Source: a virus
DNA length: 21,420 nucleotides
IMG/VR virus record: IMGVR_UViG_3300046002_005298
Span: 1-21,420 of that record
Reading direction: 5' to 3' (one strand)
The notes under the pieces were generated by a model. The model was not told the DNA's origin. It saw nothing but the letters and a program-made list of their open reading frames with translations, and did not search any database. Numbering within the stretch: the first letter of the stretch is position 1; the number at the start of each line of letters is the position of its first letter. Below, piece after piece: positions 1 through 12,398 of this stretch. The translations under genes and the position numbers were made by a program.

Positions 1-2
1 CC

Positions 3-413
3 CATACCCACGGGGATATATATACCCCGCGCGTGAAGGGTCCGACGCCGACCGAGATCAGCCGGGGCTTCGCAGCGTTCTGGGCGGCCTATCCGAAGCG
101 GGTCGGCAAGGACGGGGCGGAAAAGTCGTTCGCCAAGGCGATGCGGCGCATCCAATCCGCCGAGCCTCTTGCCGTCATCCTCGCCGGACTGGAGCGGGCG
201 CTGCCCGGCTGGGACGACCCGCAGTTCATCCCGAACCCCGCAACGTGGCTCAACCAGGGCCGCTGGGACGACGACGCACCGCAACCGAAGGCCCTAGGAG
301 CCGCCCGAAATGACCGCCCTGACCGTTACGCCGCCAAGCAATCCAACTACGACGCCGCCCTCACCGGCTCTGAGTGGGCCTCTCAACTCGTGGCTGATCG
401 GCGAACGTTCTGA
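3..413 (+). CDS. Replication-initiator-like protein, C-terminal part (partial at left edge)
   Basis: The frame is open to the left edge, so the gene probably begins outside the window. A GTG at 33 is the only start codon ahead of the conserved part and has no Shine-Dalgarno sequence. The stretch FAAFWAAYPKRVGK followed by FIPNPATWLNQGRW is the signature found at the C-terminus of many phage and prophage replication proteins (helix-turn-helix or O-like initiators), a small domain thought to work in origin recognition or helicase loading. That function is family knowledge; no catalytic motif is visible here. The last ~100 nt overlap the next gene in another frame. If GTG 33 were the true start, the protein would be 126 residues and would lack the usual N-terminal DNA-binding half. 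The family call is fairly sure, the exact role is not. Confidence 0.65.
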   Translation, partial: HTHGDIYTPRVKGPTPTEISRGFAAFWAAYPKRVGKDGAEKSFAKAMRRIQSAEPLAVILAGLERALPGWDDPQFIPNPATWLNQGRWDDDAPQPKALGAARNDRPDRYAAKQSNYDAALTGSEWASQLVADRRTF

Positions 414-1005
414 CGCGGTGGCCATCGACACCATCCGCAAGTCGGAAATCCTGACTACGGAGGCCCGGCAGGCGATGCCCGCGCTCCGGGAAGCGGCTCT
501 CCGACCGGCGACGCACGACCAGATCAAGAGCATCATCGGCCAGCGCTTCGAGCTTTTCCCGCAGAGCCAACGCAGCGCCGACCAGTGGGCCGCGTGGTGG
601 GCTGACTACTTCGACGCGCTGGACGGGCTGACCCCGTTCGCGGTTGAGGCGGGGATGGCGGCATGGGTCCGGTCGGCGGATGCGGAGTTCATGTGCAAGC
701 CGGGCAAGCTGCGGGAGCTGGCCACGACGGTCCCGAACGATAACCGATGGGCCAAGGCTCACTACCGGGCGCAGAAGGCCACGGCTGAGCCTGTGAAGGC
801 GGAAGAGCCGGTGCGGGTGTCTGGACCGAACCCGACGCGAGAGGAGATCGCGGAGGTCATGGCGTCGTTCAAGATGACGATGGAAGCCAAAGACCCGATC
901 TTGAAGATGCGGAGCAGGTTTGAGCGTCCGTCGCCCTGCGCGCGTGTGGATAACACGGGTGTTTCGCCGGAAATGCGGGCGCTTTTACAGCAACGATACC
1001 GCTGA
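310..1005 (+). CDS. Hypothetical phage protein of the replication module
   Basis: A 231-residue protein that I cannot assign to a named function. The start at 310 has a good ribosome binding site (TAGGAG at 296-301) about 8 nt upstream, although it lies ~100 nt inside the preceding gene. The N-terminus (residues 1-30) is Pro/Thr/Ser-rich and probably disordered. The middle (about 70-150), with a Trp-rich QWAAWWADYFDAL segment and a KPGKLRELA segment, looks helical and resembles a domain often seen next to phage replication initiators. The C-terminal third is charged and low in conserved features. Its position right after a replication-initiator-like gene suggests a role in DNA replication or helicase loading, but this is context only. 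A later ATG at 475 is possible but has weaker support. Confidence 0.7.
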   Translation: MTALTVTPPSNPTTTPPSPALSGPLNSWLIGERSDAVAIDTIRKSEILTTEARQAMPALREAALRPATHDQIKSIIGQRFELFPQSQRSADQWAAWWADYFDALDGLTPFAVEAGMAAWVRSADAEFMCKPGKLRELATTVPNDNRWAKAHYRAQKATAEPVKAEEPVRVSGPNPTREEIAEVMASFKMTMEAKDPILKMRSRFERPSPCARVDNTGVSPEMRALLQQRYR

Positions 1006-1022
1006 TTGTGGTAGGCTGAAGC

Positions 1023-1100
1023 ATGACCCTCGGTCTTCAACTGAGAACAGCCGGGTACGAAGCCGCTTGCGGCGTAGTGAACCAAAGAAACCCCGCATGA
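1023..1100 (+). CDS. Micro-ORF, 25 residues, start of coupled chain
   Basis: An ATG-to-TGA frame of 26 codons beginning MTLGLQLRTAGYEAACG. An AGG at 1014-1016 lies about 6 nt upstream of the start, and the TGA overlaps the ATG of the next frame (ATGA at 1097-1100), the same arrangement used by the following genes. There is no recognisable domain. It is too short for sequence-based function, and it may be a leader peptide coupling translation into the next gene rather than a functional protein. Confidence is low because 25-codon frames are common by chance; the coupled junction is the main support. Confidence 0.35.
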   Translation: MTLGLQLRTAGYEAACGVVNQRNPA

Positions 1101-1255
1101 ACCGCTTTGAAACCACAGACCTGCTCGCTGCGGTGATCTTCCGCCATCTGCCTAACGGGACTTCCCGCCTAGCCCAATCTTCCCACCGAACTGCAAGGGC
1201 AGCAGCAGTCAGCGTCATGGATGAACTTGAAAGGATTAGCAGGAGCAAATCATGA
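1097..1255 (+). CDS. Small hypothetical protein, 52 residues
   Basis: Starts at ATG 1097 (MNRFETTDLLAAVIF) and ends at the TGA of an ATGA junction with the next gene at 1252-1255. The frame stays open upstream to 920, but that extension is Arg/Ser-rich, lies inside the preceding gene and has no ribosome binding site, so I prefer the internal ATG. The protein is predicted mostly helical, with a TDLLAAVIF start and a basic C-terminus (ERISRSKS); no known domain is recognised. The tight stop/start overlaps on both sides suggest translational coupling in one transcript that leads to the NusG-like gene. Confidence 0.5.
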   Translation: MNRFETTDLLAAVIFRHLPNGTSRLAQSSHRTARAAAVSVMDELERISRSKS

Positions 1256-1410
1256 TGGACCTCACGACGATTGATGGCCTGATCAAGTATCACCGCATGA
1301 TGGAAGCGCGGGCAAGAACGACTTCCAGCATGATTATGCATTTCGACGCGGCGCAGACCCTTGAGCGCATCGCCAAGGCCGAAGTGAACCAAAACAAGGT
1401 GAACCCATGA
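1252..1410 (+). CDS. Small hypothetical protein, 52 residues
   Basis: Begins MMDLTTIDGLIKYHRMMEAR with AGGAG at 1241-1245, about 6 nt before the start, and ends at the TGA of an ATGA overlap with the 1407 gene. The composition is Met-rich in the first 30 residues (six Met) and amphipathic helical, with no membrane segment and no recognised family. Both ends sit in start/stop overlaps, so it is very likely translated together with its neighbours. Function unknown; such tiny early or middle phage proteins are often host-interaction factors, but nothing in the sequence says which host target, if any, it has. Confidence 0.55.
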   Translation: MMDLTTIDGLIKYHRMMEARARTTSSMIMHFDAAQTLERIAKAEVNQNKVNP

Positions 1411-1691
1411 CCACGATGCTGGAGACCATGGCGAGGGCGACCTACGCCAAGTGGATCGAGGACGTTCGGGATTTGGAACCGTCATGGGACGACCTGCCCG
1501 ACAGCCACCGCGACAGGTTGATCGACGCATCCCGCGCAGCCCTTCAGTCTATAAGGGAGCCGAGCGAGGCTGCGCGTGTCGCGGCAGCCGAGGCTGGTGA
1601 CGACTATTATCTGGGCGACAAGATCACATGGGAAGAAATCCCGGTGATGTTCACCGCCATGATTGACGCTATCCTCGAAGGGAAAGCCTGA
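1407..1691 (+). CDS. Hypothetical phage protein, 94 residues
   Basis: Starts MTTMLETMARATYAKWIEDV, is acidic, and is predicted to be all-helical. It contains a DLPDSHRDRLIDASRAAL segment similar in style to a small protein commonly found in alphaproteobacterial phages and prophages, for which I know no function. The start at 1407 overlaps the preceding stop (ATGA), and the stop at 1689-1691 shares its last A with the next ATG (TGATG). The low content of rare codons and the consistent G/C third positions support coding. It lies three frames upstream of the NusG-like gene in the same coupled chain. No membrane helix, Cys pair or catalytic motif is seen. Confidence 0.75.
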   Translation: MTTMLETMARATYAKWIEDVRDLEPSWDDLPDSHRDRLIDASRAALQSIREPSEAARVAAAEAGDDYYLGDKITWEEIPVMFTAMIDAILEGKA

Positions 1692-1765
1692 TGGCCAAGC
1701 GAAAGAAGCCTACAGACCCGCAGGACATGGCCTCGGTTGCCGAGCGCCGGGAGCACAGAAAATGA
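1691..1765 (+). CDS. Micro-ORF, 24 residues, leader of the NusG-like gene
   Basis: A 25-codon frame starting MAKRKKPTDPQDMASVAERR. It begins on the last A of the preceding stop and ends in ATGA with the start of the NusG-like gene at 1762. The peptide is strongly basic at its N-terminus and acidic in the middle. It could be a real micro-protein or simply a coupling leader that sets the translation rate of the gene behind it. The upstream GAAGG at 1678-1682 could serve as ribosome binding site. Support rests on the double overlap only. Confidence 0.4.
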   Translation: MAKRKKPTDPQDMASVAERREHRK

Positions 1766-2355
1766 CGTTGCGTTGGTACGCGGCCCAAACCAATCCCCTG
1801 TGCGAGCGGCGCGCCGAGGCTGGCCTTCGTGAGCACGGCTTCACCGTGTTCCTGCCCGTCGAGACGAAGTGGAAGCGAAGCCGCTCCAAGGCGCGCGAAC
1901 GGGTCAATACGCCCTTGTTCACGGGCTACATCTTCGTGGGCGTGGGGCCGTGGCAATCGCTCTATCAGGTCCGCCAGATCGACGGCATCCGGGGCCTGGT
2001 ATGCGGCCACGACGGCGAGCCTATCGACATGACGTGGATGCCGGTCCAGTTGCCGAGCGGACGCTTCCTGCGGAACCCGGACGGTACGCTGGCCAAGGTC
2101 AGCTTCGTCTATGATCTGCAAGCCCGGCAAGCCGGTGGCGAGTTCGACCACACGCCCGCCCGCCGCTCTCTGTTCAGGAAGGGGGACAAGGCCCGCATCA
2201 TGCTCGACGGACCCCTTAAGGACCAGATCGCGGAGGTTCTGGAGGCGAACGACGAAGGGCGGGTCAAGCTGCTGCTGTCAGCCAAGTTCGGATGGCGAAC
2301 GACGCTCGACAGCGACCAGCTTGAGCACCCGGAAGAACTGCTGAAAGCCGCCTAA
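1762..2355 (+). CDS. Phage NusG/RfaH-like transcription elongation factor
   Basis: A 197-residue NusG paralog. Residues 4-62 form the start of the NGN domain, which binds the RNA-polymerase clamp: RWYAAQTNP, then GLREHGFTVFLPVE, then TPLFTGYIFV, the best conserved NusG/RfaH signature. Residues about 137-188 form a KOW domain (FRKGDKARIMLDGPLKDQ ... KFGWRTTLDSDQLE). The linker between them (about 95-135) is longer than in housekeeping NusG. NusG-family paralogs travel with RNA polymerase and suppress pausing or termination, often on one dedicated operon. The gene is the last of a chain of overlapping small genes and lies just before the packaging and structural genes, so a late-gene antiterminator role is likely (inference). 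The start at 1762 is chosen because of the ATGA junction and because the NGN domain begins right there; the upstream open frame has no NusG similarity. Confidence 0.88.
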   Translation: MTLRWYAAQTNPLCERRAEAGLREHGFTVFLPVETKWKRSRSKARERVNTPLFTGYIFVGVGPWQSLYQVRQIDGIRGLVCGHDGEPIDMTWMPVQLPSGRFLRNPDGTLAKVSFVYDLQARQAGGEFDHTPARRSLFRKGDKARIMLDGPLKDQIAEVLEANDEGRVKLLLSAKFGWRTTLDSDQLEHPEELLKAA

Positions 2356-2373
2356 TGGTGGCGTTCGCTTTTT
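2342..2373 (+). terminator. Probable intrinsic terminator overlapping the NusG-like stop codon
   Basis: Bases 2342-2352 pair with 2357-2367 (six continuous pairs at the loop end, one A/G mismatch, then four more), with a TAAT loop that contains the stop codon, followed by CTTTTT at 2368-2373. The stem plus T-run fits a Rho-independent terminator, although the mismatch and the short T-run make it moderate in strength. It would separate the early/middle chain from the late genes, and read-through would be a natural target of the factor encoded just before it. Confidence 0.45.
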
Positions 2374-2531
2374 ACCCCTACTAGGTGTTGCGTTCTCGTT
2401 TTGTCCGTGTTAGCGTCCACGGGACGACCGGCGAACAATAGCAACAGCAACCCCTAGTGGGGCGTCCCGGCCAAAGACCAACCCGCGTTTTTCCGTGGCG
2501 AGGTCGGGTGCGGGAGCAATGGCGAGGCACC

Positions 2532-3176
2532 GTGCGGCTTAGTTACCTCTATGTGGTCGGGCCGCGAGGCGGTGATGTCGTCAAGATCGGGCGAGCGCAG
2601 GATGTGCGGTCCCGGCTCTGCGGCCTCCAGATTGGCCAGTGGCAGGAAATCGAAATCCTGGACACGGTGTCCCTGCCTTGGCGGGCCGTTAAGGCGGCAG
2701 AGGCGTTGACACATAAGCGGCTGGCCTCAGACAGGCTTCGCGGCGAGTGGTTCAAGGTGTCGCCCGAGCGGGCTGCGGGTGTGGCGCTTCACGCGGCCAC
2801 GCAATGCACACTGGACCGAGGGATGCAGAACCGCTTCGACCTGTGCAACCACTTCTGCATGGCGAAGAGTCCGGCGCTGGCCATAGAGGCGCTGTCGGCA
2901 TACCGAACGGCGATGCTGCGGGGCCAAACAGGGCAGATCAACCACGCCCTTCTCGACCACATCGGAATGGCCGCTTACGGCGTGTTCCGCCAGATCATCG
3001 AAGACGGCCCTGTGGTGCGGGACGGTCGCCAGTTCTACAGCGAGCTTCAGTCGGACTTCCGCCTGCTGGATACCGTGGAGCAAGGCTTCGTGAAGGCGCT
3101 CAACTTCCTGATCGACCGCCACAACGGTTTTGACGAAGACGACAGCATGGCGGACCTGATCGCCGCTGCGGCCTAG
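2532..3176 (+). CDS. GIY-YIG / T5orf172-type nuclease-fold protein
   Basis: The N-terminal ~85 residues match the T5orf172/MUG113 branch of the GIY-YIG fold: LSYLYVVG (first strand with the degenerate GIY position, residues 3-10), VVKIGRA (17-22, the YIG-like strand), DVRSRL with the usual Arg (24-29), Glu57 and His61 on a helix, and RGEWFKV (70-76). The remaining ~125 residues are helical and not recognised. GIY-YIG proteins cut DNA as homing or repair nucleases, but T5orf172 members in phages are mostly uncharacterised. I prefer the GTG at 2532, which has GAGG a few bases upstream and falls just before the domain; the frame is open from GTG 2457, which would add 25 Arg-rich residues. A free-standing nuclease-like gene next to terminase genes is a common phage pattern, sometimes linked to packaging. 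Fold call is good, activity uncertain. Confidence 0.7.
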   Translation: MRLSYLYVVGPRGGDVVKIGRAQDVRSRLCGLQIGQWQEIEILDTVSLPWRAVKAAEALTHKRLASDRLRGEWFKVSPERAAGVALHAATQCTLDRGMQNRFDLCNHFCMAKSPALAIEALSAYRTAMLRGQTGQINHALLDHIGMAAYGVFRQIIEDGPVVRDGRQFYSELQSDFRLLDTVEQGFVKALNFLIDRHNGFDEDDSMADLIAAAA

Positions 3177-3424
3177 TTACCAGTTCCCAGAGCGGGACTT
3201 GAAGCCCACCGCTTACAGGTGGCCACCGGCGTCATGACCAGGTGAGACATTCCAGAATCTGCGAGGCGGTCGCCCTTCCGGTTTATCGGTGGGGAAGCTT
3301 GCAAGCCCATCGCCTCGCAGGCCCCCATCCACGCCCCCGCACACGCTGATCAAAGCCACGGCAAGCCCGTAGGCACTACTGCGCACAGAGGCGGTGAGGC
3401 GTGGATACCTACACGGAGAGACCG
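3177..3424. other. Gene-poor structured region upstream of the packaging genes
   Basis: I see no convincing gene on either strand here. The region holds several inverted repeats: a CCACC/GGTGG hairpin with a 7-nt loop (3206-3222), overlapping the 10-base palindrome GGTGGCCACC (3218-3227); the palindrome GTCATGAC (3231-3238); and a long stem at 3258-3321 listed separately. No clear sigma-70-like promoter is seen. Its place just ahead of the terminase genes makes a packaging-recognition site, late-promoter region or small RNA possible (inference). Confidence 0.4.
3258..3321. repeat. Long inverted repeat with internal hairpins (possible structured RNA or DNA site)
   Basis: CTGCGAGGCG at 3259-3268 is the perfect reverse complement of CGCCTCGCAG at 3311-3320. 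The pairing extends by wobble or Watson-Crick pairs to 3258-3270 with 3309-3321, about 13 pairs. The enclosed 38 nt can form further hairpins: CTTCC (3275-3279) with GGAAG (3293-3297), or CCG/CGG around GTTTAT, and the palindrome GCTTGCAAGC (3297-3306). No T-run follows, so it is not a standard terminator. It could be a non-coding RNA, a regulatory site or a packaging/recombination site; the sequence cannot decide. Confidence 0.55.
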
Positions 3425-3517
3425 ATGCGTTCGACCGACATACTCATTGCCCGCGAAGGCTTCTTGATCGGTGACGGCGGCGGCGGCTGCATCGAAGGCT
3501 TCGGCGGCATCCGCTAA
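3425..3517 (+). CDS. Possible Gly-rich micro-ORF, 30 residues
   Basis: The frame starts MRSTDILIAREGFLIGDG and continues with four consecutive Gly, one Cys and a GFGGIR end. It is preceded by ACGGAGAGACC (3413-3423), the same 11 bases that precede the tailspike gene start at 17866, which is the main reason to list it. There is no recognised family. It could be a tiny structural or regulatory peptide, or a chance frame behind a ribosome-binding-like sequence. Confidence 0.3.
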   Translation: MRSTDILIAREGFLIGDGGGGCIEGFGGIR

Positions 3518-3592
3518 CCACGCCATCCCGTCTGTGTACTGAGCCAAGGCAACGGCCAGCACGGGAAGGCGAGACAATCACAGGAGGGCGCA

Positions 3593-3901
3593 ATGCGTAT
3601 CACCGTCCTCAAGCGTGGAGGCCTGTCGGTATTCGGCGGGACATACGACGCGCAGACCAACCGGGCCAAAACAGACACCGATCAGCAGCAGACTGTTGAG
3701 CTGGTGTTCCCCGAGACAATCACGGCGCTGGCCCTGACGGAGAACGGCATCGACGCCGGTTCAGTCACGATCAGCGGCACCAAGGCGACATTCACCATTT
3801 CAGGGTCCGGCTCCCTGGAGTGCATTGCGACGATGGGCAGCGAAAGGCCCAAGGTCACCATTCAAGCCGAGAGCGTCAGCCCCAGCGATTACGGCGGCTG
3901 A
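3593..3901 (+). CDS. Hypothetical protein, 102 residues, predicted beta-rich
   Basis: The start at 3593 has an excellent ribosome binding site (AGGAGG, about 5 nt upstream). The protein starts MRITVLKRGGLSVFGGTYD and alternates short beta-prone stretches (VELVFPETITALAL, SVTISGTKATFTISGSG) with Gly/Ser/Thr turns, suggesting a small beta-sandwich or Ig-like fold such as seen in phage decoration or accessory proteins. No membrane segment, no catalytic motif, a single Cys. It is the first well-supported gene of the packaging and head module, about 20 nt ahead of the small-terminase-like gene. Without a recognised family the function stays open; a minor virion component is one guess. Confidence 0.7.
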   Translation: MRITVLKRGGLSVFGGTYDAQTNRAKTDTDQQQTVELVFPETITALALTENGIDAGSVTISGTKATFTISGSGSLECIATMGSERPKVTIQAESVSPSDYGG

Positions 3902-3923
3902 TCTTTTATCGGAAAAATCAGAC

Positions 3924-4223
3924 ATGGCCCGAGGCGGTAAACGCGAAGGCGCTGGAAGGCCGAAAGGCGCGCTGAACAAGGTGACCGCCAGCGTCATGGA
4001 GGCGGCGCAGTCGTTCACCACGGACGCGCTCTCAACCCTCGCTGAGATCATGCGTAACCCTGAGCATCCGGCTGCGGCGCGGGTGTCAGCGGCCAACGCA
4101 TTGCTCGACAGAGGTCATGGGAAGCCGACGCAGAGCGTGGAGTTGGACGGCTCGCTCGACATAGAGGCGCACATCAGCGAGATCAGGCGAACCGTTGTCG
4201 ATCCTCTGCATCCAGACGCCTAG
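3924..4223 (+). CDS. Small-terminase-like DNA-binding protein
   Basis: A 99-residue protein starting MARGGKREGAGRPKGALNK. The basic GRPKG-containing N-terminus (residues 4-20) is AT-hook-like, and the helical part SAANALLDRGHGKPTQ (about 54-70) is typical of short proteins encoded directly before PBSX-type large terminases in proteobacterial phages, commonly annotated as small terminase or KGG-type packaging proteins. In that role it would bind the packaging site and regulate the motor (family inference). The gene overlaps the large terminase start by about 29 nt. The ATG at 3924 is preferred: it fits the conserved start of this family, although the ribosome binding site (CGGA at 3909-3912) is weak. 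The upstream open frame lies inside the previous gene. The protein is shorter than classical small terminases, so the name is provisional. Confidence 0.65.
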   Translation: MARGGKREGAGRPKGALNKVTASVMEAAQSFTTDALSTLAEIMRNPEHPAAARVSAANALLDRGHGKPTQSVELDGSLDIEAHISEIRRTVVDPLHPDA

Positions 4224-5445
4224 AGCGTTCCTCCCGCTTCTCAAGCCTGCACGATACAAGGGAGCCAAGGGCGGGCGGGGTTCTGGCAAGAGCCATTTCT
4301 TCGGAGAGCTTGCGGTCGAGGAGGCTGTGACCGGCCACGTTCGGTTTGCCTGCCTTCGTGAGACGCAGACCAGCATCAAGGACTCGGTCAAGCAGTTGGT
4401 CGAGGACAAGATCAGGAAGCTCGGCGTCGAGCATCTGTTCAGGATTACCGAGACGGAAATCCGGGGGCCGAACGACAGCCTGTTCATCTTCAAGGGCCTT
4501 CAGAACCACACGGCGGCGTCGATCAAGTCGCTGGAGGGGTTCAACAGGGCTTGGATTGAGGAAGCGCAGACGATCAGTCAGCGGTCGTTGGACATCGCTA
4601 CGCCGACGTTCCGAACGCCCGGCGCGGAGATGTGGTTCTCATGGAACCCCAACCACGCCAACGACCCGGTCGAGCGGCTGTTCAGCGACAACCAGGGCGA
4701 CCCGGACTTTGTCTGTGTCGAGGCCAACTACCGCGATAACCCGTGGTTCTGGGACACGGCGCTCGCCAAGGACATGGAGCGCGACAAGGCTCGCGACCCT
4801 GAGAAATACCAGCACGTCTGGGGTGGTGGATATCAGACCAGCTCAGAAGCCCGCGTCTTCCGTAACTGGAAGGTTGAGGCATTCGAGACAGCGCCCGGTT
4901 CGGAGTTCCGGTTCGGGGCCGATTGGGGTTTCTCGGTCGATCCTACCGTCCTGGTTCGCTGCTATCTGGATGGCCGAACGCTCTACGTCGATCAATGCGC
5001 TTGGGAAGTAGGCTGCGAGATCGACAAGACCCCGGCGCTGTTCGATCAGATCGAGGGTGCGAGGAAGTGGACCATCACGGCGGACAGCGCGAGGCCTGAG
5101 ACGGTCTCGTATATGCGCCGACAGGGCTTCCGCATCGTCCCTGCGATCAAGGGGCCGGGTTCGATTGAGGACGGTATCGAGTTCCTCAAGTCGTTCGACA
5201 TCGTTGTTCACCCGCGTTGTCAGCACGTCGCTGATGAGCTGACGCGGTTCTCGTTCAAGACCGACAGCCTGACGGGGGAAATCCTGCCGGTGCTGGAGGA
5301 CAAGGACAACCACACGATTGACGCCCTGCGGTACGCGCTGGAGGCGTTGCGCCGCACCTGGAAGAAGACTGTCCCGCCGCCCGCTCCCGTTCGGGATAGG
5401 TGGGACCGCAGACGAGAGGAAGGCCCGGATTGGAAACTAGCCTGA
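4195..5445 (+). CDS. terL: Terminase large subunit (PBSX-type)
   Basis: A complete 416-residue packaging motor and nuclease. ATPase domain: Walker A GGRGSGKS (26-33), Walker B AWIEEAQ (119-125, Glu122/123), and the coupling motif FSWNPNH (148-154). RNase-H-fold nuclease domain: GADWGFSVDP with Asp243, TADSARPE with Asp297 and DNHTIDALRYALE with Asp376, giving the expected acidic triad. The enzyme pumps DNA through the portal into the prohead and cuts the concatemer. The start is TTG 4195, chosen because family members begin a few residues before the QTPRAFLPLL segment and because an AGG lies about 7 nt upstream; no ATG or GTG suits. It overlaps the gene before by 29 nt and the portal start by about 16 nt, consistent with one coupled packaging operon. 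All key residues are present. Confidence 0.95.
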   Translation: MSILCIQTPRAFLPLLKPARYKGAKGGRGSGKSHFFGELAVEEAVTGHVRFACLRETQTSIKDSVKQLVEDKIRKLGVEHLFRITETEIRGPNDSLFIFKGLQNHTAASIKSLEGFNRAWIEEAQTISQRSLDIATPTFRTPGAEMWFSWNPNHANDPVERLFSDNQGDPDFVCVEANYRDNPWFWDTALAKDMERDKARDPEKYQHVWGGGYQTSSEARVFRNWKVEAFETAPGSEFRFGADWGFSVDPTVLVRCYLDGRTLYVDQCAWEVGCEIDKTPALFDQIEGARKWTITADSARPETVSYMRRQGFRIVPAIKGPGSIEDGIEFLKSFDIVVHPRCQHVADELTRFSFKTDSLTGEILPVLEDKDNHTIDALRYALEALRRTWKKTVPPPAPVRDRWDRRREEGPDWKLA

Positions 5446-7196
5446 CTCCGAACAATGACGCCCGACTGACGCGCCTGATCGGCTATTTCGAGGAAGCCGA
5501 AGAGGCCACGCAGGACGCCCGCACCAAGTCCGAGCGCGACCGCGACTACTACGACGGCAAGCAATGGACGGCTGAGGAAATCCAGACGCTCAAGCAGCGT
5601 GGCCAGCCTGCTATCGCGTTCAACGTCATCAAGTCGCGTGTCGAGTTCCTGTTGGGGCTGGAAAAGCAGCAGCGCCGCGACCCCAAAGCCTACTACCGCA
5701 ACCAGCCCGACCAGCCCGCCGCCGACGCCTTCACCGCTGGCCTTCGCTATGCTGCCGACTCCGCAGACTTTCCGGCCAAGCGTTCGCGGGCATGGAAGAA
5801 TATGGTCGTCGAGGGCTACGGCGGTGTTGAGCTGTACGCCGAGCCGGACGCGCTCGACTATGCGCTGAAGATCAATGTCATCCCGTGGGACCGGATCGTC
5901 TATGATCCGCACTCGGCGCAAGAGGACTTCTCCGACGCCCGCTATGTCGGCCAGGTTCTCTGGATGGACCTTGAGGAAGCGGTCGAGAAGTACGGTGAGG
6001 AAAACCGTACCATCCTCGAAAACACGCTGAACGATGGCCGCAGGGTTGGCGAGACCTACGATGACCGGCCCAAGTGGCAGGTGTGGTCCGACACCAAGCG
6101 CAAGCGTATCCGGGTCGTGTCGCTCTGGCACAAGGAAGCGGGCCGCTGGAACTGGTGCGAGTTCACCAAGGGCGGCGAACTGAGCTACGGCGAAAGCCCC
6201 TACACGACGAAGGAGGGCGAGAGCCTTTGCCCGCTCATCCTTGAGAGCGCGCACATCGACCGCGAGAACAACCGTTACGGCGAGGTCCGCCATCTGGTTG
6301 ACCCGCAGGATGAGGTCAACAAGCGCCGCTCCAAGGCCCTGCACCAATCGGTCAGCCGTGGTGTTATCGCGGAGGCTGGCGCGGTCGAGGACATCGCCAA
6401 GACCCGCAAGGAACTGGCCCGCCCGGACTTCTATGTCGAGGTCCAGCGCGACAGCCGTTTCGAGGTCGTGGACGGCATCCAGCTTGCCGCCGGTCAGGCC
6501 GCGCTGCTGAACGACGCCATGAGCTACATCGCTCAGGCTGGTCCGAACAGCGCCCTACTTGGCAAGGGAACCGAGGACCAGTCAGGCCGGGCTATCGAGG
6601 CTCAACAGGCTGGCGGCATGGTCGAAATGGGCGACCTTCTGGATGCGTTGCGCCGGTTCGACCAGCGTGTGTTCCAGATGCTCGCCAACATGATGCAGCA
6701 GTTCTGGACTGCGGAGAGGTGGATTCGTGTCACTGACGATGAGCTATCGCCGCAGGCTGTTGGCCTCAACGTCGCGGAAGTCGATGAGTTTGGCTATCCG
6801 GTCGGGCAACAGAATGCCGTTGCAGAAATGGACGTGGACGTAATCATTGCCGACGCTGAGAACGTGATCGCCATGCAGGGCGAGACGTACCAGGCGTTCA
6901 TGCAATCGCTTCCGGCGCTGGCCCAGATGCCGCCCGCCTTCGCCCAGATCGCGGTCAGGGTGAACCCGGCGCTCAAGGCGGCGCAGAAGCGTGAGATTCT
7001 GGAGGCGCTGGAGCAGATGGCCCAGCCCAACCCGATGGCTGAACAACAGGCTCAGATGGCCGAAGCCAAGGCCCGAGCCGACATTGAGAACACGCAGGCG
7101 CAAGCGTTCCAGCGCGCCATGCAGGGGGAGGCCGCAGCAGTTCGCGCGAACCAGCCCCAAATGATGCCCGACATGGGCCAAGTCATCGCCGCTTAA
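5430..7196 (+). CDS. Portal protein (P22 gp1-like)
   Basis: A 588-residue portal, the dodecameric ring at the head vertex through which DNA enters and leaves. Recognisable segments: the N-terminal helix with ERDRDYYDGKQWTAEE (about 35-50), RGQPAIAFNVIKSRVEFLLG, VIPWDRIVYDP, and the clip/stem-like part with RSKALHQSVSRGVI and LLGKGTEDQSGRAIEAQQ, all typical of the P22-like portal family. The C-terminal ~70 residues are Gln/Ala-rich and helical, like the barrel or crown region that extends into the head. I choose TTG 5430, preceded by GAGGAAGG; GTG 5400 in frame would add 10 residues without a ribosome binding site. It overlaps the terminase by 16 nt. The length is shorter than the P22 protein, mostly from the C-terminal end. 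Confidence 0.92.
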   Translation: METSLTPNNDARLTRLIGYFEEAEEATQDARTKSERDRDYYDGKQWTAEEIQTLKQRGQPAIAFNVIKSRVEFLLGLEKQQRRDPKAYYRNQPDQPAADAFTAGLRYAADSADFPAKRSRAWKNMVVEGYGGVELYAEPDALDYALKINVIPWDRIVYDPHSAQEDFSDARYVGQVLWMDLEEAVEKYGEENRTILENTLNDGRRVGETYDDRPKWQVWSDTKRKRIRVVSLWHKEAGRWNWCEFTKGGELSYGESPYTTKEGESLCPLILESAHIDRENNRYGEVRHLVDPQDEVNKRRSKALHQSVSRGVIAEAGAVEDIAKTRKELARPDFYVEVQRDSRFEVVDGIQLAAGQAALLNDAMSYIAQAGPNSALLGKGTEDQSGRAIEAQQAGGMVEMGDLLDALRRFDQRVFQMLANMMQQFWTAERWIRVTDDELSPQAVGLNVAEVDEFGYPVGQQNAVAEMDVDVIIADAENVIAMQGETYQAFMQSLPALAQMPPAFAQIAVRVNPALKAAQKREILEALEQMAQPNPMAEQQAQMAEAKARADIENTQAQAFQRAMQGEAAAVRANQPQMMPDMGQVIAA

Positions 7197-7198
7197 GC

Positions 7199-7247
7199 GG
7201 ACGATCCGTCCGGGCCGGTAAGCCCGAGAGGTAGCGTCGGGAGACGC
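7199..7247 (+). promoter_or_regulatory. Three consecutive hairpins in the leader of the scaffold gene
   Basis: The 61-nt gap between portal and scaffold folds into three adjacent stems. GGACG/CGTCC has a 3-nt loop (7199-7211), CGGGC/GCCCG has a 6-nt loop (7211-7226), and GCGTC/GACGC has a GGGA loop of the stable GNRA type (7234-7247). There is no T-run, so termination is unlikely. The only Shine-Dalgarno-like GGGAG lies inside the third hairpin, about 14 nt from the ATG. RNA processing, mRNA stability or translation control are possible. Confidence 0.45.
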
Positions 7248-7257
7248 CACATATCGC

Positions 7258-7965
7258 ATGACCGACAACGAAGCACCGGACGCCATGTCCGAGACGGAGT
7301 CGGCTGGCATTGGCGACATTCTCGCTGGTGACCAGTCGGCTCCTGCGGAGGCAAAGACCACCGCTCTTGAGCCTGCCAAGCAGGAAACCGCCCCGGAGGT
7401 AAAGCCGGAGACGAAACCGGAGGCCGAACAGCCGTTCTGGTATCGTAAGCGCCTCAAGGAGATCGAGACGCGCGCCAAACAGGCCGAGCAACGCGCTCAG
7501 GAACTGGAGGCCCGTCAATCGGCTCCCAATCTGCCGGACCCCCGGCAAGACCCTGTCGCTCATTTCGAGACGATGCGGGTTATGGACCGACTGGAGCGTT
7601 CGGAAGATCGCTTCGTGGACAAGCACGGCGAACAGGAGTTCGACGCGGTCAAGGAATGGCTCGCAACCCGCCCGGATATCGAGGCGTGGGCCATCCAGCA
7701 GCGTCACCCTTGGGGTTCGGCTTTCCAGCAGTACCAGCGCGAGAAGCTCTCCGCTGAGATCGGTGACGATCCGAACGCATGGCGTGAACAGGAACGCGCC
7801 CGCCTTCGAGCAGAAATCCTCGCTGAGATGCCTTCGGCTCCGATGGCTCCCCAGCGCCCGAACATCCCTCAGCCTGCATCCGGCCAGCGTTCAACAGCCC
7901 CTCGGGGCGGGGACGGTCGGTTCGCAGGCCCTACGCCGCTCGGTGAGATCATCGGCAAGCGGTAA
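7258..7965 (+). CDS. Capsid scaffolding protein (inferred)
   Basis: A 235-residue, highly charged, Glu/Ala/Gln/Arg-rich, mostly helical protein between portal and major capsid genes, the classical place of the scaffold. Residues 1-60 are acidic and Pro/Glu/Thr-rich (probably disordered). Residues 60-95 form a coiled coil (KRLKEIETRAKQAEQRAQEL), and there is more helix at about 95-190. The C-terminus is Pro/Arg/Gly-rich and ends TPLGEIIGKR; scaffolds often bind the coat through a small basic C-terminal helix. Scaffolds guide coat assembly and then exit or are cleaved. No protease motif is seen, so I favour a P22 gp8-type, non-proteolytic scaffold. The ATG at 7258 lacks a well-spaced ribosome binding site and sits behind a row of hairpins. 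The sequence family is not recognised; the call rests on position and composition. Confidence 0.75.
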   Translation: MTDNEAPDAMSETESAGIGDILAGDQSAPAEAKTTALEPAKQETAPEVKPETKPEAEQPFWYRKRLKEIETRAKQAEQRAQELEARQSAPNLPDPRQDPVAHFETMRVMDRLERSEDRFVDKHGEQEFDAVKEWLATRPDIEAWAIQQRHPWGSAFQQYQREKLSAEIGDDPNAWREQERARLRAEILAEMPSAPMAPQRPNIPQPASGQRSTAPRGGDGRFAGPTPLGEIIGKR

Positions 7966-7978
7966 CCCAACAACGCCC

Positions 7979-7992
7979 GCGTCGGATGACGC
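7979..7992 (+). promoter_or_regulatory. GCGTC hairpin in the leader of the major capsid gene
   Basis: GCGTC (7979-7983) pairs with GACGC (7988-7992) around a GGAT loop, 27 nt before the capsid start. The same stem with a GGGA loop lies 10 nt before the scaffold gene at 7234-7247, and both are followed by another C. Repetition of the same hairpin ahead of two head genes suggests a shared RNA-level function, for example processing or stabilisation. Confidence 0.4.
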
Positions 7993-8019
7993 CGGTTAGC
8001 TCATAGAAAGACCAATCAC

Positions 8020-9123
8020 ATGGCAGACACGACCCCGGCCACCGGCCTCGTCGTCCAACAGTGGGACGATCAGTTCTTCACCGAGTACCTGCAAGACCTC
8101 CCCATCAAGTCGATGATGGGCACCGACGAAAACTCGGTGATCCAGGTCAAGGAAGACCTGACCAAGAAGAAGGGTGATGTGATCACCATCGCTCTGGTGA
8201 ACCGCCTGAACGGCGCGGCTGTCACCGGCACCTCGACGCTGGAAGGCAACGAGGACGACATGACCTCGCGTTCGTTCGACATCTCGGTCAACAAGCGTCG
8301 TCAGGCTGTCCGCATCGCTGAGATGAGCGAGCAGAAGTCGGCCATCTCCCTCCGCACCGCTGGCAAGGCTGTGCTGAAGGACTGGGCGATGGAAGACACC
8401 CGCGATCTGGTCATCGCCGCTCTGGGTTCGATCAACGGCGTGGGCTTCACCGCCTCGACCGAAGCCCAGCGGGATGCATGGCTGGTGGACAACGCCGACC
8501 GTGTCGTGTTCGGCGCGGCTGCGGCTGGCCTGACCGACGCCTCGGCTGACTTCGCCCTTCTGGACACCACGGCGGACCTGTTCACCTTCGCGGTGCTGGA
8601 CGCCATGATCTTGAAGGCCAAGACGGCCTCTCCGAAAATCCGTCCGGTTCGCGACCTGTCGAACGGTCGGCGCTACTACGTCGCGCTGGCCCACCCGGCT
8701 GCGTTCAAGAACCTGCGGGACTCGCTCGACACTGAGGTTCTGGCCAACACGTCGGTTCAGGCCGAGGGCGCGAAGCTGTTTGAGGGTGGTGACATCTTCT
8801 GGAACGGCTGCATCGTCAAGGAGTGCGACAACATCCCGGTTTACACCAACCTCGGTGCATCCGGGACCGCTGAAGTCACTCCGGTCTATCTCCTCGGCGC
8901 TCAGGCCATCGGCGTGGCTTATGCCGCTCGCTGGCGTTCGCGCACCGAAGAGTTCGACTACGGCGACAAGCACGGCATCGCCATCGACGGCATCTACGGC
9001 GTCCGCAAGCTGCTGTTCGGCTCGGGTTCGGGTGACACCGACGATCTGAAGGACCACGGGGTCGTCACTGGCTACGTGGCCACCACGGCGACTGGCAACA
9101 CGGTCGGCATCGCCGCTTCGTAA
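8020..9123 (+). CDS. Major capsid protein, N4-gp56 family
   Basis: A 367-residue HK97-fold coat protein. The diagnostic parts of the N4-gp56/DUF4043 family are seen in order: WDDQFFTEYLQDLPI (about 15-29), VIQVKEDLTKKKGDVITIAL (40-60), VTGTSTLEGNEDDM (67-80), VNKRRQAVRIAEMS, and in the C-terminal half LLGAQAIGVAYAARW and DYGDKHGIAIDGIYGVRK. It forms the icosahedral shell. It follows the scaffold after 54 nt and is followed by a strong terminator, which is usual for the most highly expressed head gene. The ribosome binding site is surprisingly poor (AGAAAGA about 10 nt upstream), so translation may depend on the leader hairpin or on coupling. Codon use is strongly C-biased, in keeping with high expression. 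Note that this family differs from the P22 coat although the portal and tail are P22-like. Confidence 0.88.
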   Translation: MADTTPATGLVVQQWDDQFFTEYLQDLPIKSMMGTDENSVIQVKEDLTKKKGDVITIALVNRLNGAAVTGTSTLEGNEDDMTSRSFDISVNKRRQAVRIAEMSEQKSAISLRTAGKAVLKDWAMEDTRDLVIAALGSINGVGFTASTEAQRDAWLVDNADRVVFGAAAAGLTDASADFALLDTTADLFTFAVLDAMILKAKTASPKIRPVRDLSNGRRYYVALAHPAAFKNLRDSLDTEVLANTSVQAEGAKLFEGGDIFWNGCIVKECDNIPVYTNLGASGTAEVTPVYLLGAQAIGVAYAARWRSRTEEFDYGDKHGIAIDGIYGVRKLLFGSGSGDTDDLKDHGVVTGYVATTATGNTVGIAAS

Positions 9124-9130
9124 GCGACTT

Positions 9131-9160
9131 GAGGGGCGGGTCTTCGGGCCTGCCCCTTTT
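9131..9160 (+). terminator. Strong intrinsic terminator with UUCG loop after the capsid gene
   Basis: AGGGGCGGGTC (9132-9142) pairs along its full length (three G-T wobbles) with GGCCTGCCCCT (9147-9157) around a TTCG tetraloop, followed by TTTT (9157-9160). This 11-pair stem, very stable loop and T-run are a textbook Rho-independent terminator. It begins 8 nt after the capsid stop codon. Because the downstream tail genes have no obvious promoter, it probably works as a partial terminator that sets the capsid-to-tail ratio, unless antitermination overrides it. Confidence 0.88.
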
Positions 9161-9184
9161 CGTGTGTTCTGATCGGAGGCGTCG

Positions 9185-9502
9185 ATGACCCGAGCCGAAG
9201 CTATCCGGCAGGTGCTTGAAAACCTGCGTGTCGTCGACGCTGTCTCCGAGCCCGCGCCCGAGGACTTCTCGCGTGTTGGCCGTCGCCTCGATCAAGAGCG
9301 CGCCCGGCTGGTCACGAAGGGTCTGGCCTGGTGGGACGCTGACAGCATCCCCGACGACGTGTCCGGGGCGTTCTGTGATCTGGTCTCGACCCGTTCGCAG
9401 GGCATTTTCAACAAGCAGTACGACTCGACCGGCGCGGAAAGCATGATCGCTGCCGCCAAGTCGTCTGAGCGCCGCGAGCCGGTGCGAAGCGCCTATTACT
9501 GA
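9185..9502 (+). CDS. Head-completion / tail adaptor protein (P22 gp4-like)
   Basis: A 105-residue helical protein starting MTRAEAIRQVLENLRVVDA, with a good GGAGG (9176-9180) 4 nt before the ATG. The pattern of an N-terminal amphipathic helix, a variable linker with PEDFSRVGRRLDQERARL, a WWDADSIPDDVSGAF turn and another helix matches the small adaptor or tail-accessory family that includes P22 gp4, the ring docking under the portal. It would close the filled head and provide the platform for the next tail proteins. The order portal, scaffold, coat, this gene, gp10-like gene supports the call. It is shorter than P22 gp4, and the peptidoglycan-hydrolase activity reported for gp4 cannot be recognised here. 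It overlaps the next gene by one base (TGATG). Confidence 0.7.
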   Translation: MTRAEAIRQVLENLRVVDAVSEPAPEDFSRVGRRLDQERARLVTKGLAWWDADSIPDDVSGAFCDLVSTRSQGIFNKQYDSTGAESMIAAAKSSERREPVRSAYY

Positions 9503-10845
9503 TGCGCGCCCCTCTCCAGATCGGTCGGCAAAGCGGCGAGGCGGCTTCGGCTCCCGTCAGTGTCGAGCGGCTGGTCAACGGCTATCTGGAACAGACCCCG
9601 CAGGGCCGTGAACCGGCTCCGGTGTACGGAACGCCCGGCTTTACCGCCTTTGCCACCACAGGGGCGCTCAGGGCGCTTCTGGCGGTCGCTGACAGGCTGT
9701 TCGCGGTCAACGCCACCAATCTGGTCGAGATCGCCTCTAACGGCACGGTGACCACGCTAGGGGCCATCACCATCCCTGCGGGAACGGTGGACATCGCCTC
9801 GGACGGCACAAACGTCGTCATCACCTGCGCGAATGAGATTTACGTCTGGAACGGCACGACGCTCGCAGCGGTGACCGACCCCGACGCGCCTAACGCTTCG
9901 TCGGTCGAGTACATCAACGGCTTCTACGTCTTCACCGAGACGGATGAGCAGCAGTTCTTCATCTCGCCGCAGAACAACCCCGGCGGGGACTATGACGCGC
10001 TCGATTTCGACAGCGCCGACACCACGCCTGACGATCTGATCAGAACCAAGCGCGTGGGCCGCGATTTGCTGCTGTTCGGCAAGCGGTCGGTCGAGTTCTG
10101 GTTCTACTCGGGGGACTCGACGTTCCCGATCAACCGATACCAGGACACCCCGCTGGAGGTCGGCCTGATCGGCGTTAATGCCGTGTCGGCCAACAACGAG
10201 ACCGCCTTCTGGGTGGCCTCCGACAAGACGGTTCGCCGCTTGGATGGCAGGACCGGAACGCGGATCAGCACCTTCGCGGTGGAAAAGAAGATCGCGGGCT
10301 GGGCTGATGCCTCACTGACGGTTGTGACCTCTCATGTGTGGGAGGGTCACCTGTTCGTGGTCTTCCGCAATCCGTCCGGCTGTGTGGTCTGGGACCAAGC
10401 AACGCAGACGTGGCACGACCGCAAGTCCTACGGTTCGGACACATGGTCGATCAGCCATTACGCCTACCAGTTCGGAAAGCATCTGGTCGGCGGCGCTCAA
10501 CTCTACCAGCTCGGCGGATATGACGAAGCCGGGGCCGTGCTGCCGTTTGAGATGGTCACGCCTTGGGTGGATAATCAGGGCGAGCGGTTCAGCATCAACA
10601 GTGTGGAGGTCCGGCTTGAGGCTGGCGTCGGCTCGCAGACGCTGAACCCCAAGATCAGCCTGTCGCGCACGGAAGACGGCGAGGAGTTCACCACGCCGCT
10701 GGTTCGTCCCTACGGCAAGCAGGGCGACAGGTTCCGCCGGGTGACATGGTCCTCGCAGGGCATGAGCCGGGGGTGCGCGTTCAAGCTGTCGATCACGGAC
10801 GCGGCCAAGCGGGCTATTCTCTCGGCCTATGCGGACATTGACTGA
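9502..10845 (+). CDS. Packaged-DNA stabilisation protein (P22 gp10-like)
   Basis: 447 residues, close in length to P22 gp10, the hub of the short tail that sits below gp4 and prevents DNA leakage. Typical features: an N-terminus with VERLVNGYLEQTPQGREP and VYGTPGFTAFATTG, repeated beta-strand blades (LLAVADRLFAVNATNLVEI, GTVDIASDGTNVVITCANE) and a middle part with RVGRDLLLFGKRSVEFWFYSG and FPINRYQDTPLEVGLIG, a hallmark of this family. The second half continues with beta-rich repeats ending in the common KLSITDAAKRAIL. Beta-propeller-like organisation is family inference. The start overlaps the previous stop, and its own stop overlaps the next start (TGATG at 10843-10847), so the neck proteins are probably translated in a coupled way. 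Confidence 0.9.
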   Translation: MRAPLQIGRQSGEAASAPVSVERLVNGYLEQTPQGREPAPVYGTPGFTAFATTGALRALLAVADRLFAVNATNLVEIASNGTVTTLGAITIPAGTVDIASDGTNVVITCANEIYVWNGTTLAAVTDPDAPNASSVEYINGFYVFTETDEQQFFISPQNNPGGDYDALDFDSADTTPDDLIRTKRVGRDLLLFGKRSVEFWFYSGDSTFPINRYQDTPLEVGLIGVNAVSANNETAFWVASDKTVRRLDGRTGTRISTFAVEKKIAGWADASLTVVTSHVWEGHLFVVFRNPSGCVVWDQATQTWHDRKSYGSDTWSISHYAYQFGKHLVGGAQLYQLGGYDEAGAVLPFEMVTPWVDNQGERFSINSVEVRLEAGVGSQTLNPKISLSRTEDGEEFTTPLVRPYGKQGDRFRRVTWSSQGMSRGCAFKLSITDAAKRAILSAYADID

Positions 10846-12398
10846 TGGGAACGACACCGCTCCCGCCCCGCTTCAGTTCGCAACAGCCGATGGTCGAGCA
10901 GGGCCGTGGCGGTCTCATCCCGACGCGGCAATACAGCCACTATTTCACGACGACGCAGTTCTGGACGGTGCAGACCTCGGTTCTCAATGCCGGGGTTCAG
11001 GCGCAGATAAACGACATTCACTACAAGATCGAGGACTCCAGTTCCCTCGCTCTACAGGTGAAGGCCGAGGTCGCGGCGCTCAAGGGTGATCCCCGTCTTG
11101 AGGAAGGGGCCAAGGCTCTGGAACTGGCGCTGGTCGCCTTGATGCAAGGCCAGTCCAAGCAGGACGCACGGTTCAGGCAGGAGATCGGGGAGATTTACGG
11201 TCTGTTGGTGTCGTTGAGCCAGCAGGTTGCCGAGACGCAGCAGCGCCAGCAGGCAGCGGCCCATGAGGCGGCGCAGACGGCACAGCGCGGCGAGTTGCAG
11301 GTGTTCATCACCCAGGCTGCGGCTATCGCCTCGGTCAAGAGCCAGTCCGACCAAGTCGAGCGGCGGGTTGGTGGGGTTGAGGAGGACGTCGCGAACCTGA
11401 CCACGACCAACGTGGCTGAGGGGACCAACCTCTATTACACCAACGCTCGCGCGGATGGCCGGATTGCAGCGGCGGTTGGCGTCTCTGTTCAGGCGTATGA
11501 CGCAGACCTGACGACGTGGGCCGGGATTACGCCGGGAACGGGTGTCGCGACCGCGCTGGGCATCAACGTCGGCTCCTCCGGGGCCTTCGTCACCTTCAAC
11601 GGGGCTGGAGGAACCCCCTCCTCCCTGACCCTGACCAACGCCACGAACCTGCCGATCAGCACCGGCGTTTCCGGCTTGGGAGCGGGCGTCGCAGCCTTCC
11701 TCGCCACGCCCTCATCGGCCAACCTTCTCGCTGCCCTCACGGACGAAACCGGAACCGGCAAGCTGGTATTCGCGGACGCTCCGACCCTCGGAGGACAACT
11801 GACGGTCAAGGGGCTTGGCGCTAGCACCGGCATCGCTTTCGAGATTCAGGATAGTGCCGGAAACCCCACCTTCAGGATCACCGACAACGGTCGCGTTCTG
11901 GCCGGGACGCTATCGTCCACGTTCCCCTACTATTTCGTCAGTTCCGGCTCGCAGACGATTGTGGGTGAGCGCAGCAGCAGTTCAACCAGCCTGACCTCCA
12001 GCGTCGTCTCGGGCGGTGCTTTCCGCAACCCGGACACGACGAACGGCAACTATTCCTCTCTCCAGTTCCTCGGCGTCACGACCACGGGCGCGGGCATCAC
12101 CTTTGGCCATATCGCCTGTGTGATGACCGATCATACAAACGGCTCCATCGACAGCGATTTCGCCTTCCTCGCGCGCAGCAACAACGCCTTTACAGAGCCG
12201 TTGCGCGTCACCGGAACCGGAAACGTGGGCGTCAACACTAACTCTCAGTTCGGCTCCGGCGTGAAGGTCATCGGGATTGCCGACGCGGGCACCGTCCCCT
12301 CCACCAACCCAACAGGCGGCGGCGTCCTCTATTCCGAATCCGGCGCGCTCAAGTGGCGCGGTTCCGCTGGCACCGTCACGACCATAGCGGTCGCCTAA
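10845..12398 (+). CDS. Tail fibre / needle-position protein with coiled coil
   Basis: A 517-residue elongated virion protein. Residues 1-45 are a globular Pro/Gln-rich start (probably the tail-binding part). Residues about 45-190 are helical and strongly coiled-coil-like with many Gln/Ala/Glu (VKAEVAALKGD, EIYGLLVSLSQQVAETQQRQ, VERRVGGVEEDVANL). From residue ~190 on it turns to Thr/Ser/Gly-rich beta repeats typical of trimeric fibres: TTTNVAEGTNLYYTNAR, STGVSGLGAGVAAFLATPSS, LTDETGTGKLVFADAPTLGG. The YYTNARAD segment is common in phage fibres. The C-terminus lacks an obvious chaperone domain. The place just after gp10 is where P22 has the needle gene gp26, so it may plug the channel, or it may be a side fibre for host contact. 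No enzymatic motif is seen. Confidence 0.75.
   Translation: MGTTPLPPRFSSQQPMVEQGRGGLIPTRQYSHYFTTTQFWTVQTSVLNAGVQAQINDIHYKIEDSSSLALQVKAEVAALKGDPRLEEGAKALELALVALMQGQSKQDARFRQEIGEIYGLLVSLSQQVAETQQRQQAAAHEAAQTAQRGELQVFITQAAAIASVKSQSDQVERRVGGVEEDVANLTTTNVAEGTNLYYTNARADGRIAAAVGVSVQAYDADLTTWAGITPGTGVATALGINVGSSGAFVTFNGAGGTPSSLTLTNATNLPISTGVSGLGAGVAAFLATPSSANLLAALTDETGTGKLVFADAPTLGGQLTVKGLGASTGIAFEIQDSAGNPTFRITDNGRVLAGTLSSTFPYYFVSSGSQTIVGERSSSSTSLTSSVVSGGAFRNPDTTNGNYSSLQFLGVTTTGAGITFGHIACVMTDHTNGSIDSDFAFLARSNNAFTEPLRVTGTGNVGVNTNSQFGSGVKVIGIADAGTVPSTNPTGGGVLYSESGALKWRGSAGTVTTIAVA

Follow-up and report, generated by a model that had tools for sequence, protein, structure and literature searches.

LoaP is a NusG paralog of Bacillus that carries out processive antitermination of long operons (difficidin and macrolactin) from a leader in which an RNA hairpin is followed by an intrinsic terminator; antitermination depends on the hairpin, and termination in the leader depends on NusA (PMC12691694). 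RfaH, a further protein with the NusG-paralog fold, is loaded by ops DNA in a paused complex, and its C-terminal domain switches fold. Genes like rfaH, which code for NusG paralogs, have been mentioned on prophages (PMC7593976).

Processive antitermination in an alphaproteobacterium is known for GafZ (PMC11150451). The genes for λ Q, P22 gp23, AlpA and GafZ are each the last before the late genes, and in this position and in the presumed job they resemble the phage gene described here; they differ in being loaded at DNA elements in or near a promoter, not at an RNA hairpin. To our knowledge these four proteins do not have the NusG fold, nor are the described phage late antiterminators as a whole (the Q types, P22 gp23 and Xp10 p7) NusG proteins, while the specialised NusG paralogs known to us serve host or plasmid operons. 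PHROG 6386 is called "transcription antiterminator", a name that comes without a recorded cis-element or late-gene role. In our search of openly available papers we found no description of a phage NusG associated with late genes, nor of the RNA element reported below.

The window, by which we mean the whole stretch of 21,420 nucleotides of viral DNA analysed here, encodes such a NusG. LoaP differs from it in that it recognises a UNCG-type hairpin, is encoded by the host and serves antibiotic operons, whereas the present protein is phage-encoded and lies ahead of late genes.

The phage NusG and its genomic place

The nusG ORF (1762..2355, + strand) starts with ATG at 1762, stops with TAA at 2353-2355 and encodes a product of 197 amino acids, which was assigned by Pfam NusG, phrog_6386, AlphaFold and Foldseek. 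A sequence-only reading of the window had claimed both NGN and KOW domains for this protein, and both are borne out, though by different means. The NGN domain (residues 4-90) is significant and above the cut-off in Pfam (NusG, 1.8e-14), and PHROG 6386 is matched at 1.4e-15. KOW stays under the Pfam cut-off (E 0.077, 13.3 bits vs 22.3) and is instead recognised from the AlphaFold model (31 sequences in, pLDDT 86.7), which has an NGN fold and a C-terminal KOW-type beta-barrel with strands at 143-183, and from Foldseek matches in the PDB (NusG, RfaH and Spt5; best NusG 1.9e-10) that cover both domains. Despite the sub-threshold KOW score, the predicted structure places the protein in the NusG/Spt5 family with a C-terminal KOW beta-barrel.

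Within that family the protein stands apart. It falls under the cut-offs of the housekeeping NusG equivalog TIGR00922 (24.9 vs 135.7 bits), the RfaH equivalog TIGR01955 (42.9 vs 144.5 bits) and the LoaP family NF033641 (19.6 vs 125 bits; E 0.00078, a weak match), and it also fails the score cut-off of the UpxY profile. We therefore regard it as a separate specialised paralog. Its NGN domain does match the RfaH and UpxY profiles below the family cut-offs, and RfaH is among the structure matches. The C-domain of RfaH switches fold and has an autoinhibited alpha-helical state; that of the window protein was predicted in the beta-barrel state only, and prediction may miss a fold switch. No Q-family sequence was found in the protein, all of its Pfam and PHROG matches being of the NusG type.

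The closest relatives, found by protein search and alignment searches, come from the loci L002 (78%), L003 (57%) and L058 (41%), which together with the window we call the window subgroup. A sister lineage, from Bradyrhizobium phages, is about 30-35% identical to the window protein, and its members also match PHROG 6386; a cultured phage that carries the module is Bradyrhizobium phage ppBjS10J-1 of Bradyrhizobium japonicum S10J, whose nusG-like product is WAX24484.1 in record OP596615.1.

The placement of nusG just before the packaging and structural module, claimed in the sequence-only reading, holds. Downstream of the ORF follow a small ORF in the terminase-small-subunit position (3924..4223, + strand; phrog_15261, of unknown function, 4.9e-22), the terminase large subunit (TerL) gene as the first recognised late gene (4195..5445, + strand; Terminase_3, 1e-36), a P22-like portal (1e-113) and the major capsid protein (8020..9123, + strand; Phage_capsid_3, 1.1e-49). 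The gene is likewise directly ahead of the late genes in the Bradyrhizobium phage and in a Labrenzia phage. Of the 31 sister loci that a protein search brought up, 30 have a TerL gene 0.56-2.9 kb downstream of nusG and in the same orientation. The conserved position at the late-gene entrance is thus established, and the phages that share it have terminases, portals and capsids unrelated to one another: the sampled TerLs of all lineages form 7 clusters (30% identity over 200 aa), and L009 and L010 have near-identical NusGs with unrelated TerLs. Since the place of nusG is constant while the TerLs belong to different clusters, the gene stays while the packaging module is exchanged. The TerL of a Bradyrhizobium tropiciagri prophage (L035:9041-11308) holds an intein (Intein_splicing, 2.1e-15).

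In the window, the leader that separates nusG from the terminase genes contains a GIY-YIG (T5orf172/MUG113) nuclease ORF (2457..3176, + strand; Pfam MUG113 1.2e-7, T5orf172 1.4e-7), which on comparison the L002 and L003 leaders lack. Nuclease ORFs of the GIY-YIG or HNH type recur in this interval, in the L100 leader, at 8712-9020 of L005 and at 7251-7637 of L058 (those of L100 and L058 were identified by eye), as if the leader were a favoured landing site for them. A second conserved block (3194..3239, + strand), just upstream of the structural genes, has 31 + 14 nt identical to L003 (1810-1855 of that contig) and is near-identical between these two otherwise diverged phages. The contigs of the window, L002 and L003, the three closest, all start 1.1-1.8 kb upstream of nusG, and the window (1-413) and L003 both begin inside one replication-initiator gene; this points to an assembly break that they have in common.

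A covarying RNA element after nusG in the sister lineage

An alignment of six sister loci revealed a conserved non-coding block 3′ of nusG and a small ORF, beyond which the sequence diverges. The block corresponds to an RNA element of ~65 nt just after nusG, comprising an AAAUC box plus a short hairpin in which one mismatch is conserved. Its order is box 1 (CAAATCAG), ~16-17 nt, box 2 (CGGCCGGT), 2 to ~30 nt, and box 3 (TTTCACCCGCCGGGNGGCTTGTGTCC); the hairpin, of 6 bp with a conserved C-mismatch, is followed by GGGNGGCUUGUGUCC. A search of Rfam with the leader or element sequences of the window, L002-L004, L035, L037, L042 and L054 gave no match.

The element is linked to nusG. A 20-nt DNA pattern taken from it matched 20 viral contigs, 16 of which have nusG 83-337 nt upstream; in three of the remaining four, no more than 303 nt of upstream sequence is present. 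A scan for boxes 1 and 2 that left out box 3 yielded 22 new loci. Both of those with a detectable nusG (L063 and L077) carry box 3, which is also present in L064, where the upstream sequence is only 407 nt. Boxes 1 and 2 alone were rejected as a marker of the element, most of the new matches being chance occurrences with neither box 3 nor nusG. Every whole record that was searched and carries the element has exactly one copy. A covariance model built from the DNA-ascertained elements alone found the element after nusG in 12 of 15 held-out loci that had been ascertained by protein (E<1e-3). Its E-values, which are rough, were better than those of a sequence-only model for several variants, such as L109 (3.8e-6 vs 3.6e-3), but not for every locus.

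Two kinds of departure were seen. On a contig of 4276 bases without nusG (L042:1428-1488), the element and a strong terminator separate one half of an SU10-type portal gene from the other and adjoin an ORF for a GlsB/YeaQ-like membrane protein (identified by eye); this copy could represent a second target site, have arrived by insertion or belong to a degraded prophage. L083 and L075 retain boxes 1 and 2 and have, in place of box 3, other sequence with hairpins of its own, perhaps a switched recognition signal.

The hairpin is supported by covariation. In loci found by protein search only, changes in box 2 are accompanied by matching changes in the first half of box 3: GC is replaced by UA in L092, L095, L096, L100, L110 and L111, by CG in L086, L096, L098, L099 and L109, and by AU in L097, and CG is replaced by UA in L098, L099 and L109. 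Across 37 sequences aligned with MAFFT, 95.8% of cells pair. Two-sided changes occupy 11 cells, against 1.5 +/- 1.1 in shuffles (0/500) and 0 to 2 in slid controls, a count that is conservative because L098 and L099 are misaligned. All 42 upper-stem pairs in 14 held-out loci are formed (shuffled mean 25.8, 0/20000); the arms for this count were read by eye, and it therefore adds support without being independent evidence. The middle position of the hairpin is always C, facing C, U or A, and is thus a kept mismatch. A hairpin internal to box 3 (CAC-CC-GCC-GGGN-GGC-UU-GUG) was considered first and dropped, as the compensatory changes fall in the box 2/box 3 helix.

These properties bear on whether the conserved element might be a DNA packaging (cos/pac) site, as its position just upstream of the terminase genes would allow. 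Against it, the element covaries as a hairpin and stays with nusG while the terminases differ, as in L009 and L010, and we consider this reading very improbable.

The element is often followed by a terminator. A strong intrinsic terminator lies within 200 nt after it in 14 of 22 loci; shuffled sequences would give 2.2, and among the control windows the figure is 31 of 535. Most of these terminators start 24-56 nt past the 20-nt core. Counted from nusG, 15 of the 31 protein-ascertained loci have a terminator within 600 nt, whereas 25 of 319 windows do (Fisher 4.5e-8). The probabilities for both enrichments are optimistic because the loci are mutually related, and in roughly one third to one half of the sister loci a terminator was not detected. 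The leader of the Labrenzia phage has a GC-rich stem, then TTTTTC.

The sister lineage thereby shows the layout of the LoaP leader, a hairpin and then an intrinsic terminator; in the window subgroup only a conserved box is established. With an RNA hairpin as its putative recognition signal, the sister lineage compares best, as a working system, with LoaP and the LoaP leader hairpin rather than with RfaH and ops DNA. This corrects the comparison with RfaH in the sequence-only reading, the NusG-paralog fold being common to RfaH and the phage protein. The sequence GGCGGCTTGTG resembles ops.

The same RNA could also be an attenuator, an autoregulatory site or a leader signal for host factors (NusA, NusB/S10, Rho or the ribosome), with the phage NusG serving all phage transcripts as a general anti-Rho or coupling factor and leaving the element unrecognised. 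General roles of this type are known for housekeeping NusG (PMC6391919). Against this, the element is a single copy tied to nusG while everything downstream varies, and the combination of element and terminator fits the LoaP leader; we judge this explanation unlikely.

Candidate terminators and a candidate element in the window subgroup

A generic scan of positions 1-12000 of the window returned 8 terminator-like sites, and 8.8 +/- 3.5 were found in shuffles. With the count at chance level, a hairpin and T-run is by itself no evidence, and a stricter score with controls was used. On the + strand this score ranks first the candidate intrinsic terminator after the capsid gene (9132..9165; AGGGGCGGGTCTTCGGGCCTGCCCCT, with its hairpin at 9132-9157, + TTTCGTGT; score 31.4) and second the candidate over the nusG stop codon (2342..2373; score 24.4). 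The latter, which also appears in the generic scan, consists of a hairpin at 2342-2367 (stem of 11 with one mismatch, loop of 4) and then CTTTTTAC. The two scores agree with the sequence-only reading, which had placed a hairpin with T-run over the nusG stop and a stronger one after the capsid gene. The stop-codon hairpin is partly kept in relatives, the T-run being farther from the stem in L003 and L002.

In a covariance-model search the sister element was absent from the window, L002, L003 and L058. These four have in common a box, TGCGTTC(GTTC)[TA]CG, which occurs once per locus, +34 nt from the nusG stop in the window, L002 and L003 and +38 nt in L058. In the window the box (TGCGTTCTCG, 2389-2398) lies in a conserved block of 24 nt (2386..2409, + strand), an exact match between the window and L003 with diverged flanks, which is the candidate recognition element of the subgroup. 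A possible hairpin after the box (UUGUCCGUG...CACGGGACGA; 2401..2427, + strand) is suggestive only. It can be drawn in all four sequences, and some relatives can pair here with different letters; folding after the box in the four sequences was not better than in shuffles. Because the box is shared while its hairpin is not better than shuffles, the window element is a good candidate and not a proven one. The pattern GTTGCGTTCN{0,4}TCGTTNTGT, run against viral contigs, was discarded: only the window group matched in context, and the remaining matches were due to chance.

The order of these features in the window has to be weighed, since the candidate element at 2386-2409 lies past the stop-codon terminator, which may then simply end the early transcript. 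It is conceivable that nusG is just the last early gene and that the late genes are read from their own promoter with no antitermination, the conserved block being part of a promoter or operator. Beside the terminator candidate upstream of the block, this would be in keeping with GTTCTCGTTTTGTCC (2392-2406), which is one base off GTTC-N7-GTTC, the LexA box of alphaproteobacteria. The conserved block has no good sigma-70 match, and a consistent -10 was not found when the window box was read by eye as a promoter. In the sister lineage, moreover, the element covaries as RNA across loops of ~2 to 30 nt and has the terminator after it. Late genes served in this way from their own promoter thus seem to us a rather poor explanation, less probable than a leader signal for host factors. 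GTTCTCGTTTTGTCC also occurs in L003, and L002 has a close form; a link of the late genes to SOS through this LexA-like sequence is possible.

A proposed leader-RNA-loaded late antiterminator

The layout seen in the LoaP system, together with a genomic place like that of λ Q, leads us to propose that the phage NusG is a late antiterminator of the LoaP kind, loaded from a leader RNA, in the position of Q; we put the probability of this at roughly two in three. NusG would be made from the last early gene and would be loaded on the host RNA polymerase while a short leader signal just downstream of its gene is transcribed. It would then remain bound, so that the polymerase passes the terminator or terminators that precede the packaging and structural operon or lie inside it. 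The phage NusG would, on this proposal, bind both the RNA and the polymerase, bring about read-through and control the late genes. The loading signal of the sister lineage would be the RNA with the AAAUC box and the 6-bp hairpin; in the window subgroup it is probably the box at 2389-2398 and what follows. Against the proposal stand the L042 copy on a contig without nusG and the sister loci in which a terminator was not detected.

The late-gene switch suggested in the sequence-only reading is upheld in part. It gains from the conserved late-gene entrance and from the covarying RNA and terminator of the sister lineage, and loses in the window itself, which lacks the sister element and has its terminator ahead of the candidate. 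More broadly, we lean towards the view that a viral NusG, a dedicated nut-like RNA hairpin and a terminator make up a widespread and so far undescribed class of late switch in alphaproteobacterial phages, a module that moves between unrelated packaging machineries.

If the proposal is true, a viral NusG that has an RNA loading site of its own would link phage late antiterminators with specialised NusG paralogs, and a new RNA family would be added. The system would be compact enough for studying how a NusG paralog selects the operon that it serves, and in it the natural compensatory variants of the sister hairpin would be ready-made test mutants.
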